A stretch of DNA of 64,000 nucleotides from Azorhizobium doebereinerae UFLA1-100. GTDB taxonomy: Bacteria; Pseudomonadota; Alphaproteobacteria; Rhizobiales; Xanthobacteraceae. Both the position numbers and the translations under genes were made by a program. The stretch is from contig NZ_AXBA01000002.1 of assembly GCF_000473085.1 (NCBI RefSeq), positions 62,001-126,000 on the forward strand, written 5' to 3'. The notes beneath the pieces were generated by a model that was not told where the DNA came from, did no database searches, and saw only the letters and a program-made list of their open reading frames with translations. Positions 7,148 to 25,817 of this stretch are shown here, one piece after another (position 1 is the first letter of the stretch; each line of letters opens with the position of its first letter).

Positions 7148-8272
7148 ATGAAACTCACGATCGCTCGCGACGAGTTGCTCTTCGGCCTGGACCGCATCGT
7201 CCGCATCGTCGAGCGCCGGAACACCATCCCGATCCTCGCCAACGTGCGCCTGGCCGCGCTCGGCGACGCCCTGGAACTGTCCGCCACGGATCTGGACCTG
7301 CAGGCGACCACGAGGCTACCGGCATCGGTCGGGAGCACGGGCGAGACGACGCTGCCGGCGGTGACCTTCACGGATTTCGTGAAGAAGCTTCCTGCGGGCG
7401 CCGACGTGACCATTGAGACCGGCAAGACCGAGAGCCAGATGGTCATCAAGTCGGGGCGGTCGAAGGCGACACTCCTGACGCAGCCCTCGTCGGACTTTCC
7501 GGATCTGAATGTCGCGGACTGCCCTTGGGAGGTGGAGATCCCCGCGACCGTACTGAGCCAGATGTTCGAGAAGCTCGCCTTCGCGATCTCGACGGAAGAG
7601 GCCAGATACTATCTGAACGGCATCTATTTCCACGGCTTGCAACTGGGCGAGAAGCGCATCCTCCGAGGCGTGGCCACCGATGGGCATCGACTGTCGCAGC
7701 ATGACCTGGTGGATATCGCCGCACCAGCGGGGATGCCGGGCATCATCATCCCCAGGAAGACCGTTGCTGAGATCTCGCGGCTGACGAAGGGGCGGGGGAA
7801 GGAACTGATCAAGCTCCAGATCAGCGCCACCAAGCTGAAGGTCACCACCGGCACCACCGTTCTGGCGTCCAAGCTGATCGACGGCACATTCCCCGACTAC
7901 ACGCGCGTCGTGCCGCAGGGCAACAACCTGGTGGCCATCATCGACAGGGTCGACTTCGCCGCGGCCGTCGATCGCGTCGCGACCATGAGCAGCGAACGGA
8001 GCCGGGCCGTCAAATTCTCGTTCAAGCCGGGGCGGGTGGAGATCTCCGTGACCTCCCCCGATATGGGCAGTGCGATCGAGGAAATGGACGTCGACTACGA
8101 TGGTGACAGCATCGATATCGGCTTCAACGCCAACTACGCGCTCGACATCCTCGGTGCCACTGAGTCCGACAATATCAGGGTCGCGATGGCCGACGCCGGC
8201 AGCCCGACCACGTTCCAAGCGTCTACCGACGGAGCCCCGTCGCTATTCGTGCTCATGCCGATGAGGGTCTGA
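7148..8272 (+). CDS. dnaN: DNA polymerase III beta subunit (sliding clamp), phage-borne
   Basis: 374 residues, the normal length for a beta clamp with three repeated domains. The N-terminus MKLTIARDELLFGLDRIVRIVERRNTIPIL and the C-terminus VLMPMRV are the classic clamp ends, and internal landmarks (ATDGHRLS, DGTFPDY) are present. The clamp encircles DNA and tethers polymerases. A clamp inside a prophage is unusual, since hosts supply their own; it may be adapted to a phage polymerase or serve recombination with the adjacent AAA+ and exonuclease genes. Upstream spacing is 9 bp, with a weak GAAGGC ribosome-binding site. Confidence 0.93.
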   Translation: MKLTIARDELLFGLDRIVRIVERRNTIPILANVRLAALGDALELSATDLDLQATTRLPASVGSTGETTLPAVTFTDFVKKLPAGADVTIETGKTESQMVIKSGRSKATLLTQPSSDFPDLNVADCPWEVEIPATVLSQMFEKLAFAISTEEARYYLNGIYFHGLQLGEKRILRGVATDGHRLSQHDLVDIAAPAGMPGIIIPRKTVAEISRLTKGRGKELIKLQISATKLKVTTGTTVLASKLIDGTFPDYTRVVPQGNNLVAIIDRVDFAAAVDRVATMSSERSRAVKFSFKPGRVEISVTSPDMGSAIEEMDVDYDGDSIDIGFNANYALDILGATESDNIRVAMADAGSPTTFQASTDGAPSLFVLMPMRV

Positions 8273-8670: not shown

Positions 8671-8882
8671 TGCGTACCTTTTTCCAGGACTTTGCCCTCG
8701 ACGACGGGCGCACCGCGACCGTCGAGTGGGGCTGGAGCGGAGCCGAGAACAGCGTGCTCGTCGTGAGCGCCTGGATCACCGCGACCGAGGAAGACGTCGA
8801 TTTAAACTGCAATGAGAGCGAACGCTTCGAGGACGTGGTGCTCGCTCTGTCCCCCTTCCCTCCTCATGAGGACTGCGACTAA
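8670..8882 (+). CDS. Small hypothetical acidic phage protein
   Basis: 70 residues from an ATG at 8670; an adjacent GTG at 8667 could also serve. The protein is acidic (EEDVDLNCNESERFEDV) with a beta-rich N-terminal half. Its stop codon overlaps the start of the large gene that follows. No family recognised. Confidence 0.5.
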   Translation: MRTFFQDFALDDGRTATVEWGWSGAENSVLVVSAWITATEEDVDLNCNESERFEDVVLALSPFPPHEDCD

Positions 8883-10927
8883 TGAGCACCGACACCTACG
8901 AACGGGCCGACGTCATTGCCGCGGCGGCGGATGCTGCCAAGGCCCACGGCGAGTTCCACGACTTTGCCAACGCCATCGAGCGCCGATTCCGCGAGATGGC
9001 GGGCGGAGAGCTCTATGCCGTCGACGCCGGCGACCTCTTCAGCGTCTATCTGGCGGCCTACCCGGATGGCACCAACCCGATCTTCCGGGTGCGCACGGAA
9101 CACGACTGCTCGTGCTGCAAGAATTTCGTGCGCAATGTCGGGCATCTGGTTTCCCTCCAGTGTGGCCAGATCAGCACCGTCTGGGACGTGGCCGGCCTGG
9201 AATATCCCTTCGACGTGGTGGCCGCCAAGCTCGCTGAGCATGTGCTGTCCAGGCCGATCTCGACGGTGTTCCGCACGAAGGAGTTCAAATTCGGCGCCCA
9301 CCATACGAACGAGCTCCGTGAGGAAGGTGTCACGCGCCGCTGGCATCACTTCTTCTGCGACGTACCGAGCCGGTTCCGGTCCGATGCGCCCGATGCCGCC
9401 CGCGGTGAGGTCGGGGCGACCGCGCAGGTGCTCCGGCGGGGCCTCGAGGAACTCTCCGCCGACAGCATCGAGACCGTCGTCGACCTGATCCAGGACAATG
9501 CGCTGTATCGTGGCGCGGAGTTCGAGCACCAGGTGCTGGAGTTCCTCAACCTTCATGCGCGCTATCCCCGCGAGAGATCGGCCAGCGAGAAGGATGCCTT
9601 CATCTGGGCCCACGTCGGAAGACCCGCGGCGCGCTTCCGCAACACCGTGATTGGGACCCTCGTGCAGGACATCGCCGCCGGTGTCGATCTGGACCACGCC
9701 GTGCGCTCCTACGAGGCCAAGGTGGCGCCGCAGAACTACAAGCGCCCGACCGCGCTCATCACGCCGAGGATGATCAGCGATGCCATCACCAAGCTGAAGG
9801 ATCTGGGCCTCGAGAGCGCCGTCGAGCGCCGCTTCGCCCGGATGTCGGATGTCTCGGTGAACAACGTCCTGTTCGTCGACAACTCGGTCCGCGGGGCGAT
9901 GAAGGACGGCCTGGCCGGCCTGCTGATGGAAGCGGTCAAGCCGGTCATGAACGACGTCAAGGGCGCCGAGCCGATCGCCATCGAGGAGTTTCTCTCCCGG
10001 ATCGTGCCGCAGGCCACCTCCATCGGCTTGCTGCTGGAGAACAAGCATCTCCAGAACTTCATGAGCCTGACGGCGCCGGTCCATGCCGATGCTGGAAAGC
10101 TGTTCAAATGGGGTAACGGGTTCGCATGGTCCTACGACGGCGATGCGGCGGACTCGATCAAGCAGCGCGTGAAGCGTGCCGGCGGCAATGTCGATGCCGA
10201 TCTGCGCGTCTCGCTGGCCTGGTTCAACACCGACGACCTCGATCTTCACGTGATCGAGCCCTCCGGCCGGCACGTCTTCTATGGCGACAAGTGCGGCATC
10301 CTCGACGTCGATATGAACGTCAGCAACCTGGTCCGTGATCCGGTGGAGAATCTCTCCTGGGTGCGCCCGCTGCGCGACGGCCGGTACCTGATCCAAGTCC
10401 ATCAGTTCACGCGCCGGGAGTCGATCGACATCGGTTTCGTGCTCGAGGTCGAACACCGCGGCAAGGTGGACACTTTCACCTATGAGCGCGCAGTGAGCGG
10501 CCTCGTCAATGCCCTCTCCCTTGAGGTGCTGCACGGCACTCTGGCGATGACCGGCATCGGCGCGGGTCTGAAGTCTGGATCGCTGTCGCAAGAGAAGTGG
10601 GGCGTCAAGACCGGAACGCTGGTCCCCGTCGATACGCTGATGGCGAGCCCGAACCACTGGGATGGCCAGGCCACCGGGAACAAGCACTGGTTCTTCTTCC
10701 TCAAGGACTGCCGCAACCCCTCGCCGGCCCGCGGCATCTACAACGAATTCCTGTCGCCGGCCCTCGACCCGCACAGGAAGGTCTTCGAGGTGCTCGGCGC
10801 CAAGTCGAAGTGCGCCCCGGAAACCGAGCAACTCTCAGGCGTCGGCTTCTCCTCCACCCGTCACGACCAGGTGACCGTGGTGGCGAAGGGGGACTGCATC
10901 AACAAGGCATTCGCCATCACTTTCTGA
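8882..10927 (+). CDS. Large unknown phage protein with DUF2135/YfaP-like beta domain
   Basis: 681 residues, the largest gene of the element. The N-terminal half (about 1-330) contains a CSCC cluster near residue 77 and otherwise helical sequence. Residues about 437-545 contain the pattern LAWFNTDDLDLHVIEPSG, then DVDMNV, then ENLSWVRPLRDGRYLIQV, which resembles the beta-sandwich DUF2135 (YfaP-like) domain usually found beside von Willebrand A domains. The C-terminus GVGFSSTRHDQVTVVAKG looks like a separate conserved end domain. No signal peptide, membrane segment or catalytic motif is seen. Its partner is probably the 140-residue product of the next gene, 11 bp away. Function unknown. Confidence 0.75.
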   Translation: MSTDTYERADVIAAAADAAKAHGEFHDFANAIERRFREMAGGELYAVDAGDLFSVYLAAYPDGTNPIFRVRTEHDCSCCKNFVRNVGHLVSLQCGQISTVWDVAGLEYPFDVVAAKLAEHVLSRPISTVFRTKEFKFGAHHTNELREEGVTRRWHHFFCDVPSRFRSDAPDAARGEVGATAQVLRRGLEELSADSIETVVDLIQDNALYRGAEFEHQVLEFLNLHARYPRERSASEKDAFIWAHVGRPAARFRNTVIGTLVQDIAAGVDLDHAVRSYEAKVAPQNYKRPTALITPRMISDAITKLKDLGLESAVERRFARMSDVSVNNVLFVDNSVRGAMKDGLAGLLMEAVKPVMNDVKGAEPIAIEEFLSRIVPQATSIGLLLENKHLQNFMSLTAPVHADAGKLFKWGNGFAWSYDGDAADSIKQRVKRAGGNVDADLRVSLAWFNTDDLDLHVIEPSGRHVFYGDKCGILDVDMNVSNLVRDPVENLSWVRPLRDGRYLIQVHQFTRRESIDIGFVLEVEHRGKVDTFTYERAVSGLVNALSLEVLHGTLAMTGIGAGLKSGSLSQEKWGVKTGTLVPVDTLMASPNHWDGQATGNKHWFFFLKDCRNPSPARGIYNEFLSPALDPHRKVFEVLGAKSKCAPETEQLSGVGFSSTRHDQVTVVAKGDCINKAFAITF

Positions 10928-12874: not shown

Positions 12875-13220
12875 GCCCGCCTTCGCTGCTCCGGAGCACG
12901 CCTCCGACCTCTACCGCCTTCCGTCCGGCGACTGGATCCAGATCCAGAACATCGACGGCGCGCGGATCAGCAATAAGCCGAACCGGCAGACGGGCGAGAT
13001 GGGCGCGCAAGTCCACCTCAACGTGGCCGGATCCTGGCACACCGTCATGTTCGATGAGATCGCCGATGCCGAGGTGTGGCTGGCCGCGATCGTCCAATAC
13101 CGCAACGACCTGCTGCGCCCCCGGTCCAGCAAGAGCGCCACGCGCGCCGAGGCGCTGCAAATGGTGGCCGGCCTGCACAGCCGCCACCGTCCCACGCAAG
13201 ACGAAGACGGGGACTCCTGA
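12867..13220 (+). CDS. Hypothetical phage protein
   Basis: 117 residues from the ATG at 12867, which overlaps the preceding stop. The sequence suggests a beta-rich domain (DWIQIQNIDGARISN, VHLNVAGSWHTVMF) followed by a helical C-terminus. No motif recognised. Its stop overlaps the next start by one base (TGATG). Confidence 0.6.
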   Translation: MTEPAFAAPEHASDLYRLPSGDWIQIQNIDGARISNKPNRQTGEMGAQVHLNVAGSWHTVMFDEIADAEVWLAAIVQYRNDLLRPRSSKSATRAEALQMVAGLHSRHRPTQDEDGDS

Positions 13221-14326
13221 TGGCCGGAAAGTCAAAGATCGAATGGTGCACCGACACATGGAATCCCATCGTCGGTTGCTCGGTCACCTCGCCCGGCTGC
13301 ACCAACTGCTACGCCATGTCGATGGCGCGGCGGATCGAAGCCATGCAACCCGGCTCGCACTATGCCGGCACCACGCAGGTGGTGAAGGGCAATCCGGTCT
13401 GGACCGGTAAAGTCGCGCTCGCACCCGAGCACATCCTCACCCAGCCGCTGAGCTGGCGGCGCGGCCGGAAGATCTTCGTCAATTCCATGGGTGACCTCTT
13501 TCATGAGGATGTCACCGACGAATGGATCGACTGCGTTTTCGCGGTGATGGCGCTGGCGCCGCACCACACTTTCCAGGTGCTCACGAAGCGCGCCGCACGG
13601 ATGCGGGCTTATATGTCCGACCCGAGCGTTGTCCGCCGCGTCTATGAGCTCGCCTGCGATATGGCTGTCGCGATGCGGCTGGCAGTCGTCCTGATCGCTG
13701 ACCCGGCACATGACAAGTTTGCACCACCCGGCGTGCGGATCCGTCTTGGCTTATGGCCGCTCCCGAAGGTCTGGCTTGGCGTTTCGGCCGAGGACCAGCG
13801 CCGGGCCGATGAGCGGGTGCCGGATCTGCTGGCGACGCCGGCGGCCGTGCGTTTCGTCAGCGCCGAGCCGCTGCTGGGGCAGCTCGTCTTTCGGCAGTGG
13901 CTATCGTTCGACCAGCCGTGCCGCGGATGCGGCTACGCGGGTGCATTAGGGGGCGCGTTCCCTCGCCGCGACGCTCAATGCCCAAGGTGCGGCATCATCC
14001 ACACAACCATCGACTGGATCATCGTAGGCGGCGAGAGCGGCCCCGGCGCGCGGCCGATGCATCCTGACTGGGCTCGGGCCATTCGCGACCGATGCGCGAC
14101 TGCCGGCGTCCCGTTCTTTTTCAAGCAGTGGGGAGAGTGGGCGCCGCCGAGCGTGTTGTTCGCGGACACGCTCGCCAACTGCCGGCTTCAGGCGCGCGCA
14201 GAGGCCAATCCTTCATTGGTGCACGTCTTCCCTGACGGGTTGAACATGGGTCGGATCGGCAAGCGCTCCGCCGGCCGGCTGCTGGACGGGCGCGAGCACA
14301 ACGGCATGCCGGAGATGCGCTCATGA
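13220..14326 (+). CDS. DUF5131 (phage Gp37/Gp68 family) protein with extra zinc ribbon
   Basis: 368 residues. The N-terminus has the family signature IEWCTDTWNP...GC...SPGCTNCYA with Cys10, Cys20, Cys27 and Cys30, and the conserved FVNSMGDLFHE and IIVGGESGPGARPM segments follow. The fold is thought to be radical-SAM/TIM-barrel related, but no function is established. Residues 234-257 add two CxxC knuckles (Cys234/237, Cys254/257), a zinc ribbon inserted before the GGESG motif and longer than in compact members. The start is the ATG at 13220 in TGATG. It is a common cargo gene of phages and mobile elements. Confidence 0.88.
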   Translation: MAGKSKIEWCTDTWNPIVGCSVTSPGCTNCYAMSMARRIEAMQPGSHYAGTTQVVKGNPVWTGKVALAPEHILTQPLSWRRGRKIFVNSMGDLFHEDVTDEWIDCVFAVMALAPHHTFQVLTKRAARMRAYMSDPSVVRRVYELACDMAVAMRLAVVLIADPAHDKFAPPGVRIRLGLWPLPKVWLGVSAEDQRRADERVPDLLATPAAVRFVSAEPLLGQLVFRQWLSFDQPCRGCGYAGALGGAFPRRDAQCPRCGIIHTTIDWIIVGGESGPGARPMHPDWARAIRDRCATAGVPFFFKQWGEWAPPSVLFADTLANCRLQARAEANPSLVHVFPDGLNMGRIGKRSAGRLLDGREHNGMPEMRS

Positions 14327-15156
14327 ACGCGCAGCAGATCCTCGCGGTCCCCCCGACCGATTACGCCCGGCTGTTCCCGGCCGCGGACACGATCCGCGCC
14401 GTCTACCACGATCTCCTGTTTGCTTGGCACCCCGACCGTCAGCCCGATCCCCAGGCAGCCGCGGTCACCGCGCACCTGAAGATGCTCCACGACGAAGCGT
14501 GCAAGGCGCGGGATGCCGGCAACTGGACAGAGCCGAACACGCTCCGCCTCCAGGCGGACGGTCGCCAGTTCGTCTTCCGCTTCCAGCGCAAGGTGGCAAC
14601 GCCCGCCGGCAACCTTCATGTCGGGCTCGCGCGCCTCGCCGTCGTGTCCGATGCCGGGATGGATGACCTGGTGCGCCACGCGCGCAAGGTCGCCGCCGGC
14701 TTGCCGCCCCTGCCCCGCGCGATGACATCGGAGTTCCTTCCGCTGCTGCCGGGGACCTACCAGCCGACGCAATCGGCCGGACGGGAGGGCTACACCTTCA
14801 AGATGGACCCGCGGGCGGTCCGAGTGCGCGATCTCCTCGACAAGACGGGCGGGCTCGACACCGTTGCCGCCTTGGTGGATGACCTCACGGACCCCTCCAC
14901 AAAGTCGGATGGCAACCGGCAGGTGCGACGCGCGATCGACCGTGCCCACTCGGCGAAGGCGTCCCCAGCAGCCAAGACCGTAAAGTTGGCGGACATCATC
15001 GACAACACGACATCCATCGTCCGGCACGACCGCAGCTTCGCCAGGCTCTACCGCTCGGAGATCGAGATGCTGTTGCCGCTCCTCGCGGAAGGCGACACCA
15101 GCCTTCACGCGCGAGCATCCGCGCAGGTGGCGTCGGCGATGGAGAATTGCAGATGA
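14323..15156 (+). CDS. J-domain-like protein fused to the C-terminal half of an HD phosphohydrolase
   Basis: 277 residues. The N-terminus (about 11-62) has the J-domain pattern with HPD at residues 36-38 in a VYHDLLFAWHPDRQ context. Residues about 165-265 match the second half of RelA/SpoT- or MESH1-type HD phosphohydrolases: VDDLTD, then NRQVRRAIDRAH, then TVKLADIIDNTTSI (residues 219-232), then RHDRSFARLYRSE. The first His and the His-Asp pair of the HD site are missing, replaced by the J segment and a linker; only the last Asp (in KLAD) remains. It is therefore unlikely to be a working hydrolase. It overlaps DUF5131 and the reductase gene by 4 bases each. Confidence 0.75.
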   Translation: MNAQQILAVPPTDYARLFPAADTIRAVYHDLLFAWHPDRQPDPQAAAVTAHLKMLHDEACKARDAGNWTEPNTLRLQADGRQFVFRFQRKVATPAGNLHVGLARLAVVSDAGMDDLVRHARKVAAGLPPLPRAMTSEFLPLLPGTYQPTQSAGREGYTFKMDPRAVRVRDLLDKTGGLDTVAALVDDLTDPSTKSDGNRQVRRAIDRAHSAKASPAAKTVKLADIIDNTTSIVRHDRSFARLYRSEIEMLLPLLAEGDTSLHARASAQVASAMENCR

Positions 15157-15548
15157 GCATTGCTGACATTCGACTCATCGCGGCCGTCGGCCGCCGGGGG
15201 CAGCTCGGTCTCGACGACGAGTTGCCGTGGCGCGATCCGGTTGACCTCGCGTTCTTCCGCAACAACACAACCTTCTGCACCGTCATCGTGGGCCGCCGCA
15301 CCGCCGAAGCGGTCGGTACCCTGCCGAAGCGCCACGTCGCCATCTGGGACGGGAAGGAGGAGCCAGCCGCGTTCCTCGCCGGGATCAAGCAGCCGCATTG
15401 GGCGAAGGGCTCGCCGATCTGGATCGCCGGCGGCGCACGCACCTATCGCGCCTTCATGCCGCTCGTGCGAACCTGCGTCATCACGCGCATCGACTATGAC
15501 GGGCCGGCCGACACCTGGATGCCGCCCCTGTGGGAGCCTGCGCGATGA
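15153..15548 (+). CDS. Short dihydrofolate reductase-family protein
   Basis: 131 residues from the ATG overlapping the previous stop. The DHFR landmarks are in order: IRLIAAVG, LPWRDPVDLAFF with the substrate-binding Asp31, VIVGRRT for NADPH, IAGGARTYRAF with the Gly93-Gly94 pair, and ITRID with the conserved Thr. It ends right after the DTWMPP segment, about 35-40 residues before a normal DHFR would, so the last beta strands are absent. It may make tetrahydrofolate for phage thymidylate synthesis, or have shifted function. No frameshift that would restore the end is obvious. Confidence 0.8.
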   Translation: MSIADIRLIAAVGRRGQLGLDDELPWRDPVDLAFFRNNTTFCTVIVGRRTAEAVGTLPKRHVAIWDGKEEPAAFLAGIKQPHWAKGSPIWIAGGARTYRAFMPLVRTCVITRIDYDGPADTWMPPLWEPAR

Positions 15549-17873: not shown

Positions 17874-18358
17874 TGGCGAAGGTCGAACCCACCGACGGCT
17901 GGGGGCCGCTGCGCCAGCGCATGGACCCGCCGGCGAAATCACGGATGCAGAGGCGAGCCCGTGGGCGACAGCAGGATCGCGCACACCTCGACCTGGTTCG
18001 CATGCTGCCATGCTTGATCACCGGCCAACTCGGCGGAGTCGATGCCGCACATATCCGCTTCTCGGATGCGGAGCACGGCAAGGTCAACCCCGGCGCTGCC
18101 AAGCCGGATGATCGATGGACCGTCCCGCTTTCGCACGCGCTGCATACCGACGCCACCGAAGCACAGCACCGGCATGGCGAAGAGGCCTGGTGGCAGCGCA
18201 AGGGCATCAGCCCGTTGCGCGTGGCCGACAACCTCTACTCGCTGAGCAAGACGCTGCGCGACCTGAAGCAGCCCGAGGATTTCATCATCCGCGCGATGAC
18301 CGCAGTCATCAGGGACGCGCGCAACGCCGCCGGATTGGCTCACAGGAGCGGATCATGA
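17873..18358 (+). CDS. HNH-like (DUF968-type) putative nuclease
   Basis: 161 residues from the ATG at 17873, with a GTG directly before it that overlaps the upstream stop. The core reads LVRMLPCLITGQLGGVDAAHIRF, then WTVPLSHALHTDATEAQH, then EEAWWQRKGI. The conserved DAAH, LH and QH histidines are placed as in DUF968/Ref-like HNH proteins of phage recombination regions. The usual zinc cysteines are mostly missing: only one Cys is present. A DNA-nicking role in recombination is suggested, not shown. Confidence 0.65.
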   Translation: MAKVEPTDGWGPLRQRMDPPAKSRMQRRARGRQQDRAHLDLVRMLPCLITGQLGGVDAAHIRFSDAEHGKVNPGAAKPDDRWTVPLSHALHTDATEAQHRHGEEAWWQRKGISPLRVADNLYSLSKTLRDLKQPEDFIIRAMTAVIRDARNAAGLAHRSGS

Positions 18359-18981
18359 CAACCGCCTATCCCCTTTCGTGGCCCGCAGGGCGACCGCGCC
18401 GAGCGCCGTCGCAGCGGAAGACCGGAAAGTTCAACAAGATCGCCAACCCTGATGAGCGGTGGAAGATCAAAAGATCTCTGTCGGTCGCAGACGCTGTCAA
18501 GCGCCTGCAAGGCGAGATTGATCGAATTGGTGGCTGCCTTCCAGTCATCAGCAGCAACGTCGAGCTTCGCCAGGACGGTCTGCCGAGGTCCGGTGCGAAG
18601 GAACCGATTGACCCCGGCGTCTGCCTCTATTTCCAGTTGGCGGGCCGGCCGCACGCGATGCCCTGCGACACCTACGAGAAGGTGGCCGACAACATCGCCG
18701 CCATCGCGGCGCACATCGAGGCGACCCGTGCGATCGAGCGTCACGGCGTGGCCAGCATCTCCGAGATGTTCGCCGGCTTCACCGCCCTGCCCGCGCCCGG
18801 CGCGACCAGGCCATGGTGGGAAGTGCTGAACGTCTCCAGATCGGCCACGCGCGGCGAGATTGATGCCGCATACCGGGCCAAGGCGCGCACAGCGCACTCG
18901 GATGCGGGCGGATCTGATGCCGCAATGTCCGAACTCAACGTTGCCCGTGACACGGCGCTGAAGGAGATGAATCGTGGCTGA
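18355..18981 (+). CDS. J-domain-containing phage protein with altered HPD motif
   Basis: 208 residues. The N-terminus TAYPLSWPAGRPR, the GVCLYFQLAGRPHAMPCDTYEKV middle and the WWEVLNVSRSATRGEIDAAYRAKA end belong to a phage family usually annotated as J-domain-containing. The normal HPDxGG at the end of helix II reads HSDAGG here (His181, Ser182, Asp183), so stimulation of DnaK would be weakened or lost. It may redirect or imitate a host chaperone contact. It overlaps neighbours by 4 and 8 bases. Confidence 0.8.
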   Translation: MTTAYPLSWPAGRPRRAPSQRKTGKFNKIANPDERWKIKRSLSVADAVKRLQGEIDRIGGCLPVISSNVELRQDGLPRSGAKEPIDPGVCLYFQLAGRPHAMPCDTYEKVADNIAAIAAHIEATRAIERHGVASISEMFAGFTALPAPGATRPWWEVLNVSRSATRGEIDAAYRAKARTAHSDAGGSDAAMSELNVARDTALKEMNRG

Positions 18982-24201: not shown

Positions 24202-24479
24202 GCACCACCCCGCATCGGCGCGATGTCCTGCCCGGCAGCCTGCCGCCCCGCGGCCTCTCGCGGGTCGAAGCTGCCGCCTATATCGGCGTGTCCCCGGGTC
24301 TCCTTGACGAGATGATCCGCGACGGCCGCATGCCGCCGCCCAAGCGCATGAACACCCGCACGGTGTGGGACAGATACGAACTGGACACGGCCTTCAGCGC
24401 GCTGCCAAATGCCGGATCGACCGTGGCCAATGCTGCATGGGACGGTTCAAACGTCGAGCTCGTGGATTTCCGTGTTTGA
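24198..24479 (+). CDS. AlpA-like excisionase/regulator
   Basis: 93 residues. PPRGLSRVEAAAYIGVSPGLLDEMIRDGRMPPPKR (about 16-52) is the winged helix-turn-helix of AlpA/Xis-type proteins, which bind att or promoter DNA to direct excision or regulate integrase. It sits directly before the integrase gene, as expected of an excisionase. The C-terminal 25 residues are not typical. The gap to the integrase start is 14 bp. Confidence 0.8.
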   Translation: MSTTPHRRDVLPGSLPPRGLSRVEAAAYIGVSPGLLDEMIRDGRMPPPKRMNTRTVWDRYELDTAFSALPNAGSTVANAAWDGSNVELVDFRV

Positions 24480-24493
24480 ATCTGGAGGCGCAC

Positions 24494-25714
24494 GTGGACG
24501 CCAAGTTCCGGTACACCTGCCGCGAGCGTGATCGCCACGGCAAGGAGCGGATCTATTTCCGGCGCCGGCCGGGCGAGAAGCGCATCGAACTGCCCTTCTA
24601 TCCGCGCGGCGAGACGCCGCCAGAGGGCTTCACGCGGGCCTATCACGGGGCGATGAAGGCGACGGTGGGCGATAGACCGGCAGACACGCCGGCAGTCAAA
24701 GTGCGGGCGACATCGCAGCCGACGGTCGGCACATTCCGCTGGCTCTGCGCGCAGTATTTCGCCTCCGGCGAGTTCCGCCAGCTCGGGCCATCCACGCGCA
24801 CCGTTCGGCGGGGCATCCTGGAGCACTGCTTACTGGAGCCTACGGCGCCCGGCTCCGTGACGGTCTTCGCCGATCTGCGCATCGAGCAGATCAGCGCCAA
24901 GGGCGTCCGCGTGCTGCGCGACCGCAAGGCCGGATTGCCCGAGGCGGCAAATGGCCGGGTCAAGGCGATTCGACAGGTGTTCGCTTGGGCGATCAAGGCC
25001 GAGCCGGACATGGTCAGCCTCAACCCAGCGCGCGACGTACCCTACCTCAAGGGGCGGGCAGATGGGTTCCACACTTGGACCATCGAGGAGGTGCAGGCCT
25101 TTGCGGTCCGCCATCCGCTTGGAAGCAAGGCCCACCTCGCCCTGGCGCTCCTCCTGTTCAGCGGCGTGCGGCGGTCCGACGTGGTCAAGCTCGGCCCGCA
25201 GATGATTCGGAACGGCTGGCTCCGGTTTGCCGAGACGAAGGGCGCCACGCAGATCCGGAAGGATCGCGAAATCCCTGTGCTGCCGATCCTGGCGTCGGTG
25301 ATCGAGGCATCCGACCTCGGGCACCTGGCATTCCTAGTCACCGCGTTTGGTCGCCCTTTCACAGCCAACGGCTTCGGCAACTGGTTCCGGAAGCGCTGCG
25401 ATGAGGCGGGCCTGCCCCATTGTTCGGCCCATGGCCTGCGCAAGGCGGGCGCGACGATCGCCGCCGAGAACGGGGCGACGGAACATCAGCTGATGGCGAT
25501 GTATGGGTGGGAGAGCCCGAAGCAGGCGGCGATCTACACCCGGCGGGCCAACCGGCGAAAGCTGGCCGGCGCCGGGATGCCCTTTATCGATCTCGGCAAC
25601 CTGGATGGCATCGAGGACATCGCCGAGGCGCCGCCGGAGGGCGAGCGCGAGGACGAAGCCGGAACAGATTATCCTAACCTTCTTCGCGGTTCGGATAATT
25701 CTGGCTCTAAGTGA
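24494..25714 (+). CDS. int: Tyrosine recombinase (phage integrase)
   Basis: 406 residues from a GTG at 24494 with GGAGG 6 bases upstream; the open frame runs further up but only this start has a ribosome-binding site. Catalytic residues: Arg226 (GVRRSD), Lys249 (ETKG), His313 and Arg316 (HGLRK), Trp339 in place of the second His (YGWES), and nucleophile Tyr348 (AIYTRR). Residues about 78-170 form the core-binding domain. It would insert the element into the adjacent tRNA-Phe gene. The stop codon is 27 bp from the tRNA. Confidence 0.95.
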   Translation: MDAKFRYTCRERDRHGKERIYFRRRPGEKRIELPFYPRGETPPEGFTRAYHGAMKATVGDRPADTPAVKVRATSQPTVGTFRWLCAQYFASGEFRQLGPSTRTVRRGILEHCLLEPTAPGSVTVFADLRIEQISAKGVRVLRDRKAGLPEAANGRVKAIRQVFAWAIKAEPDMVSLNPARDVPYLKGRADGFHTWTIEEVQAFAVRHPLGSKAHLALALLLFSGVRRSDVVKLGPQMIRNGWLRFAETKGATQIRKDREIPVLPILASVIEASDLGHLAFLVTAFGRPFTANGFGNWFRKRCDEAGLPHCSAHGLRKAGATIAAENGATEHQLMAMYGWESPKQAAIYTRRANRRKLAGAGMPFIDLGNLDGIEDIAEAPPEGEREDEAGTDYPNLLRGSDNSGSK

Positions 25715-25741: not shown

Positions 25742-25790
25742 TGGTGCCCAGGGGCGGAATCGAACCACCGACACTGCGATTTTCAGTCGC
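25742..25790. other. Probable attachment site within the tRNA-Phe 3' half
   Basis: Tyrosine recombinases of this type usually recombine in the 3' half of a tRNA gene, from the anticodon loop to CCA. That half faces the integrase here, and the tRNA is intact, as expected when the element restores it on insertion. The exact core cannot be read because the matching copy at the left end is outside the window. Confidence 0.55.
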
Positions 25791-25817
25791 ATGCTCTACC
25801 AACTGAGCTACCTGGGC
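25742..25817 (-). tRNA. tRNA-Phe (GAA)
   Basis: On the minus strand the gene folds into a full cloverleaf: acceptor stem GCCCAGG pairs with CCTGGGC, the anticodon loop reads CTGAAAA giving anticodon GAA, and the T arm has GGTTCGATTC. CCA is encoded. It is 76 nt long and is the likely insertion target of the phage element on its 3' side. Confidence 0.97.

Follow-up and report, generated by a model that had tools for sequence, protein, structure and literature searches.

The gene at 14323-15156 raises the question of whether a protein that starts like a chaperone recruiter and ends like half of an alarmone hydrolase is a working design or the product of an accident. All positions refer to the window, the whole stretch of 64,000 nucleotides that was analysed, which corresponds to bases 62001-126000 of contig C2. 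The open reading frame (ORF) runs on the forward strand from an ATG at 14323 to a TGA at 15156, just where an earlier note on this DNA had placed it, and encodes 277 aa without an internal stop or frameshift. It shares ATGA overlaps with both of its neighbors, an upstream gene encoding a DUF5131 phage protein (13220-14326, forward strand; Pfam PF07505, E 2.7e-93; phrog_2045) and a downstream gene encoding a dihydrofolate reductase (15153-15548, forward strand; Pfam PF00186, E 5.4e-20). Its codon-position G+C is coding-like both before (0.74/0.48/0.88) and after (0.61/0.49/0.84) the point at which its two halves meet. With a probability of roughly three in four, we read this gene as a singular in-frame chimera, created by the non-homologous joining of a J-domain-kinase gene and a phage HD alarmone-hydrolase gene, while a chimeric origin as such is very probable.

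The gene lies in what is best read as a temperate and otherwise complete-looking prophage located next to a tRNA-Phe gene. The right part of this prophage occupies positions 1-25714 of the window, as indicated by a match to an IMG/VR provirus record and by its structural and replication genes, while on the left the prophage is truncated where the contig ends. Judging from the match offset, the IMG/VR provirus would span from the start of contig C2 to about base 87714, i.e. about position 25714 of the window. The gene set includes terminase, portal, head protease, capsid, tape measure, tail fibre, DnaB, helicase and repressor, as well as an integrase (24365-25714, forward strand; phrog_1, E 7.9e-33) that is adjoined by the tRNA-Phe gene (25742-25817, reverse strand), the probable attachment site. 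The IMG/VR record (87713 bases) has an identical gene at an identical offset. Over the 12.8 kb compared around the gene, it does not differ from the window sequence, so the record is not independent and confirms nothing. Three other genes of this prophage were recorded separately. The first encodes the prophage's own DNA polymerase sliding clamp DnaN (7148-8272), with all three Pfam domains present. The second encodes a 681-aa phrog_1735 protein of unassigned function (8882-10927) that has counterparts in 511 phage records, with a coverage of at least 80% in 426. The third encodes a second phage protein with an apparent J-like segment (18352-18978; phrog_9210), in which a C-terminal helix pair is discernible by eye and HSD replaces HPD.

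The first 177 residues of the chimera belong to a J-domain-kinase family. A 23-member profile of this family aligned with residues 1-177 over profile positions 14-192 of 355 (101 bits; E 3.4e-33, the value for a one-sequence search), and the PHROGs match of the N-terminal part was phrog_3043, annotated 'kinase' (E 3.9e-5). The J domain itself covers about residues 1-68 (14323-14526, forward strand), with its HPD tripeptide readable in the sequence at residues 36-38 (14428-14436, forward strand). Among the family members compared, the H and P of this tripeptide are present in 23/23 and the D in 21/23. The corresponding Pfam DnaJ match is weak and stays below the cut-off (E 0.02; 15.5 bits vs. 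a gathering cut-off of 27.8). In the AlphaFold2 model, helices at residues 21-34 and 45-64 flank the HPD with a pLDDT of 92-98, and residues 1-67 align with 6jmg_A (Z 8.9, rmsd 1.9, 65 residues aligned). The earlier note had described an N-terminal, J-like helix pair around an HPD, which the profile and the modelled helical hairpin both bear out. This part of the protein also retains 16/19 conserved residues, while the other rows of the family start from 15/19.

The earlier note divided the protein into two parts and was right about both ends, but it missed the middle. Residues 70-177 (14530-14853, forward strand) are neither J nor HD and instead match a kinase-fold N-lobe, both by the J-kinase profile and by structural matches to kinase N-lobes. 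A LigT 2H phosphoesterase was considered for residues 75-130 and rejected, as its Pfam score of 15.8 bits is below the gathering cut-off of 23.3 and the region matches the J-kinase N-lobe. The N-lobe retains 7/13 conserved residues, which is the smallest share of the 24 sequences compared (others 10/17 to 13/13), in a test that leans against the chimera because it is absent from the consensus and is the most distant row. J-kinase relatives possess a C-lobe, which is absent from the chimera. A C-lobe profile, built from 10 of the 39 J-kinase loci and matching all 39, detected nothing in the chimera or in the six-frame prophage ORFs of at least 20 aa, and a C-lobe alignment had no match in the whole of the host genome, where a positive control is lacking. 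A search with phrog_3043 did yield a weak C-lobe match at C2:223154 (E 0.08), outside of the prophage, for which the C-lobe alignment gave no confirmation.

Full-length members of the J-domain-kinase family are present in bacterial as well as viral sequences. Searching the 289 genomes of the class with the N-terminal half produced matches at E <=0.01 in 13, the host genome included. Among them are two ~365-aa frames that cover residues 2-177 (G101, E 3e-18; G171, E 4e-13), and a third match, over residues 2-178, is from Inquilinus limosus (G486) and is likewise a J-domain-kinase. A scan of viral contigs with the family alignment identified 31 J-kinase loci. The family (phrog_3043), which includes proteins of the mycobacteriophages Tonenili and Kashi_SSH1 annotated 'serine/threonine kinase', shares with the chimera the J domain and N-lobe of residues 1-177, in the same order and from the same start. 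However, the chimera has neither the C-lobe nor the neighboring VWA gene of this family and carries the HD half instead. The VWA gene is found close downstream on the same strand at 38/39 J-kinase loci (35/36 distinct places), and at the sole locus without one, only 93 bases remain on the contig. No VWA gene was matched in the six-frame ORFs of the prophage, and a search of the host genome, again lacking a positive control there, was empty as well. In the family alignment, with the catalytic-loop and DFG motifs placed by ourselves, an Asp stands at the HRD position in 8/23 members and GGW replaces DFG (G in 21, G in 22, and W in 23 of 23). Given this seemingly degenerate catalytic loop and DFG, the J-domain-kinase parent was probably itself a pseudokinase.

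The C-terminal part of the protein, residues 179-275 (14857-15147, forward strand), corresponds to the C-terminal half of an HD domain of the phage small-alarmone-hydrolase type. A 22-member HD profile aligned with it over profile positions 107-203 (132 bits), its PHROGs match was phrog_990, a metal-dependent phosphohydrolase (E 1.6e-8), and a half-profile matched the solved structures 3nqw (CG11900; E 2.5e-7), which we take to be fly Mesh1, and 5vxa, human MESH1 (E 3.2e-4). Matching phage proteins are found, among others, in Pseudomonas phage D6 (54%), phiKM1 (55%) and Salmonella phage SSU5 (38%, residues 179-257), and identity to the nearest relatives reaches 59%. What is left of the active site is the KLADIIDN motif (14983-15006, forward strand), which is invariant or nearly so in the HD family. 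Overall, this half retains 34/37 conserved residues, much like its intact relatives (others from 30/38), and exhibits no decay.

The N-terminal half of the HD domain is missing altogether. All 26 of its 26 conserved columns are empty in the chimera, including the invariant His, His-Asp, and Glu-Asp, which have metal and catalytic roles, and an N-half profile gives the chimera 0.6 bits. Thus, the C-terminal HD half with a metal-site segment proposed in the earlier note is confirmed, as is the loss of the first His and the His-Asp pair, to which the Glu-Asp can now be added. By a crude motif test, the N-half was present in 91/91 HD frames examined, one of which has HN for HD. A split HD domain with its N-half encoded in trans was also considered. 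The N-half profile, which recognized 8/8 HD loci outside of its build set, had no match in the six-frame prophage ORFs of at least 20 aa, while in the host genome an N-half query matched a 762-aa protein, which the profile also recognized, and otherwise reached E 0.2. This 762-aa protein is probably Rel/SpoT, judging from its length and HD match, and the split arrangement was rejected. Relative to the phage small alarmone hydrolases (phrog_990; PaSpo of SSU5; MESH1), the chimera therefore shares the C-half with its KLADIIDN but lacks the N-half His, His-Asp, and Glu-Asp. Because these invariant residues are missing, hydrolysis of alarmones ((p)ppGpp/(pp)pApp) would be lost, and hydrolase activity is not expected. 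The earlier note had envisioned binding of (p)ppGpp without cleavage. The loss of cleavage is what the missing residues suggest, but they also make binding by the remaining half-domain doubtful. From its annotation, the SSU5 protein matched here would be PaSpo, a small alarmone hydrolase that reportedly counteracts toxSAS toxins (PMC11559606, PMC9712102).

The predicted structure is compatible with this anatomy. The AlphaFold2 model of the full chimera, built from an input alignment of 13 J-kinase N-half rows and 2 HD rows, has a mean pLDDT of 80 and a pTM of 0.50. Beyond the confidently modelled J domain (pLDDT 92-98), pLDDT is 73-91 in the N-lobe, 55-65 around the junction (residues 161-190), and 65-87 in the remaining HD half. 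Residues 70-169 were matched by kinase N-lobes, mostly of DYRK and CLK such as DYRK2 and CLK1 (Z ~7-8, rmsd ~3), while residues 166-277 were matched by the small alarmone hydrolase 7p1y_DDD (Z 7.0, rmsd 3.0, 102 aligned), with helices of the GlyRS alpha chain scoring higher in the HD part (Z 7.7 over 65 residues, also Z 7.5); as Z values of this size are common by chance, it is primarily the profiles that support the kinase and HD assignments. Folded alone, the HD half reached a pLDDT of 91 and a pTM of 0.81. Foldseek then placed haemoglobins on top, the HD phosphohydrolase 3kh1 third (E 1.7), and the small alarmone hydrolase 6yvc below the haemoglobins (E 4.9-7.5; TM by query 0.47-0.61). Neither the full model nor the HD-half model had a Foldseek match at E <=0.001 in the PDB. 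The earlier note had proposed structure prediction and comparison with MESH1/SpoT HD domains. The J hairpin emerges clearly from the model and the end of the protein is indeed helical and HD-compatible, so neither of the two outcomes that the note had named as refuting its reading was observed, but the fold search alone is no proof of an HD domain.

At the junction (14854-14859, forward strand), the kinase match ends at residue 177 and the HD match starts at residue 179, leaving no linker, and both cuts are located mid-domain, with the kinase breaking off at the end of its N-lobe and the HD domain setting in behind its His-Asp half. Judging from the residues lost, the chimera would be enzymatically dead, with neither kinase-type nor hydrolase activity. 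Its parents would have been a J-domain-kinase gene interrupted after the N-lobe and a phage HD alarmone-hydrolase gene interrupted after the His...His-Asp half, and the join is best read as an in-frame deletion or an illegitimate join within the prophage. The simplest route would be one deletion that began within the kinase, took in the VWA gene, and ended within the HD domain, which would account for all three losses, i.e. the C-lobe, the VWA gene, and the N-half of the HD domain.

Gene layouts in other phages show that such a deletion is geometrically possible. An HD gene is also carried by 8/27 J-kinase virus records; none of the 27 has the two genes side by side, and the nearest pair is ~5 kb apart with the HD gene upstream (G488). 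This comparison covered the 31 viral loci apart from L127 and L154-L156. An HD gene lies downstream of the J-kinase gene on the same strand at ~6 kb in one virus record (G506) and at ~18 kb in two others (G491/G492), a layout that a single deletion could convert into the fusion, although the HD proteins encoded there are distant (31 and 53 bits, respectively, to the HD profile). G509, the phage that most resembles the prophage by gene content, has its J-kinase and HD genes ~53 kb apart on opposite strands. Within the stretch compared, this phage shares dnaN and one more gene with the prophage, and its HD protein has 52% identity to the HD half. No direct DNA-level parent of either half was found, and with the two genes of G509 on opposite strands, the deletion is inferred rather than seen. 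A DNA search with positions 13220-15545 gave matches in 8/61 genomes, the host genome included. In the four matching regions examined, DUF5131 was present, whereas J-kinase, HD, and dihydrofolate reductase genes were not matched, and no ancestral state was recovered from them.

We also searched for a second example of the fusion, and the only record with both halves in a single gene among the phage, viral, and genome searches was the same sequence. The earlier note had suggested looking for the fusion in other phages; of the 36 phage records that match the protein, none contains it and none covers 80% of the query. Among viral contigs, 11 loci besides the same sequence matched, all by the HD half only, as did the best 80 of 127 relatives in GTDB contigs. 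No second case was found among the 289 class genomes searched with the N-terminal half or among 199 order genomes, in which the 3 matches other than the host genome involved the HD half only. With an alignment of the N-terminal half, 337 of 398 phylum genomes matched, and among the matches listed, none but the host's own extended beyond profile position 91 of 182. Within the collections searched, a conserved fusion family was rejected, and a literature search on phage J-domain/HD-domain fusions found no J-HD fusion.

Taken together, the mid-domain cuts, the VWA partner that was not found, and the lack of a relative with the same fusion argue for accident before design. Because the HD half is undecayed, the fusion is recent or constrained, and a recent join explains the conservation pattern, the open frame, and the ATGA packing without invoking function. 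We would give even odds to the gene being a dead remnant, i.e. a recent deletion scar whose frame is still open but which is being lost. This agrees with the loss of parts for both activities together with the VWA partner and with the low share of conserved residues in the N-lobe. However, the J domain and the HD half have kept 16/19 and 34/37 of their conserved residues, respectively, and neither a stop nor a frameshift has arisen. If any part of the chimera is active, it is perhaps the J domain, which we tentatively suggest might still work and could dock on the host DnaK via its intact HPD hairpin. The product, if made, would then be a J-domain protein docking on DnaK, with the remainder forming a partly ordered tail.

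It is unlikely that the gene is a retained working fusion in which a pseudo-HD scaffold binds a target and the J domain recruits DnaK to it. The intact HPD and J fold, the undecayed HD half, and the tight packing of the ORF between its neighbors in an otherwise complete-looking prophage would all fit such a role, and there is some precedent in Rki of phage RB43, a J-domain protein that acts on DnaK by binding it and whose gene is fused in frame to its neighbor in RB16 (PMC3486835). Conversely, this is a single example in which both parent domains are cut mid-fold, the N-lobe is the least conserved of those compared, the junction is modelled at a pLDDT of 55-65, and the HD N-half with its invariant residues is missing. 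The earlier view of a pseudo-HD scaffold tied to a chaperone recruiter is thus sound with respect to the presence of a J domain and half of an HD domain, as supported by the profiles and the model, but a scaffold role is unlikely and the anatomy favors an accident.

An old architecture from a rarely sampled phage lineage is distinctly improbable. The J-kinase half is 23-31% identical to the relatives aligned, and patterns derived from it match only the same-sequence record among viral contigs, both of which would be consistent with a long separate history, yet the HD half is as conserved as in intact enzymes and the phage, viral, and genome searches yielded no second case. Also quite improbable is a newborn phage gene, in which a stable J protein would use its HD half to bind an alarmone hydrolase/synthetase of the host or phage, or its ligand, while the J domain brings DnaK, thereby turning a scar into a host-takeover factor. 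Finally, an assembly or sequencing artefact joining two separate genes is very unlikely, since, even though only one assembly contains the join and the IMG/VR record is the same sequence, the assembly is 99.99% complete and should then include the other halves at another place, where searches did not find them (apart from the weak E 0.08 C-lobe-like match outside of the prophage), the unrelated parent families would hardly share DNA long enough to mislead an assembler, and ATGA overlaps are found at both ends.

The proposed in-frame chimera has partial counterparts among known systems. Like the chimera, Rki has a phage-borne N-terminal J domain with an HPD followed by an unrelated C-terminal part, and the RB16 form is likewise an in-frame fusion to a neighbor. 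However, we claim no common descent outside of the J domain, and Rki has been tested experimentally, whereas the chimera is known from sequence. DNAJB1-PRKACA, the J-PKA fusion of fibrolamellar carcinoma, also has a J domain beside a kinase fold and reportedly arises by one deletion (PMC5768683). Its structure 4wb7 was Foldseek rank 1 (E 0.054), but here the J-kinase pairing is native to the family and the join adds the HD half. In phage protein domain mosaicism, as outlined in one study (PMC10684548), otherwise unrelated phage proteins share fragments, while the cut of the chimera does not follow domain borders but falls within two domains. If expressed and folded, the chimera would be a clear example from nature of how two truncated domains can yield a new protein, and would test whether a J domain suffices to make such a product useful. 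If dead, it would serve as a warning that domain matches at both ends of an ORF may mimic a designed scaffold in what is a deletion scar.

The parent module, comprising a J domain, a kinase-like domain, and a near-constant VWA partner, seems little studied and merits a study of its own; no paper on it was evident in the literature searched. The pair of J-domain-(pseudo)kinase and VWA genes occurs in mycobacteriophages, in a few bacterial genomes, and in virus records as long as 494 kb. In the mycobacteriophages, a PurA-like gene comes after the VWA gene. In the draft assembly of Inquilinus limosus MP06, the J-kinase gene (L118:1453-2525) has an apparent frameshift within its C-lobe, where the C-lobe profile matches two overlapping frames.
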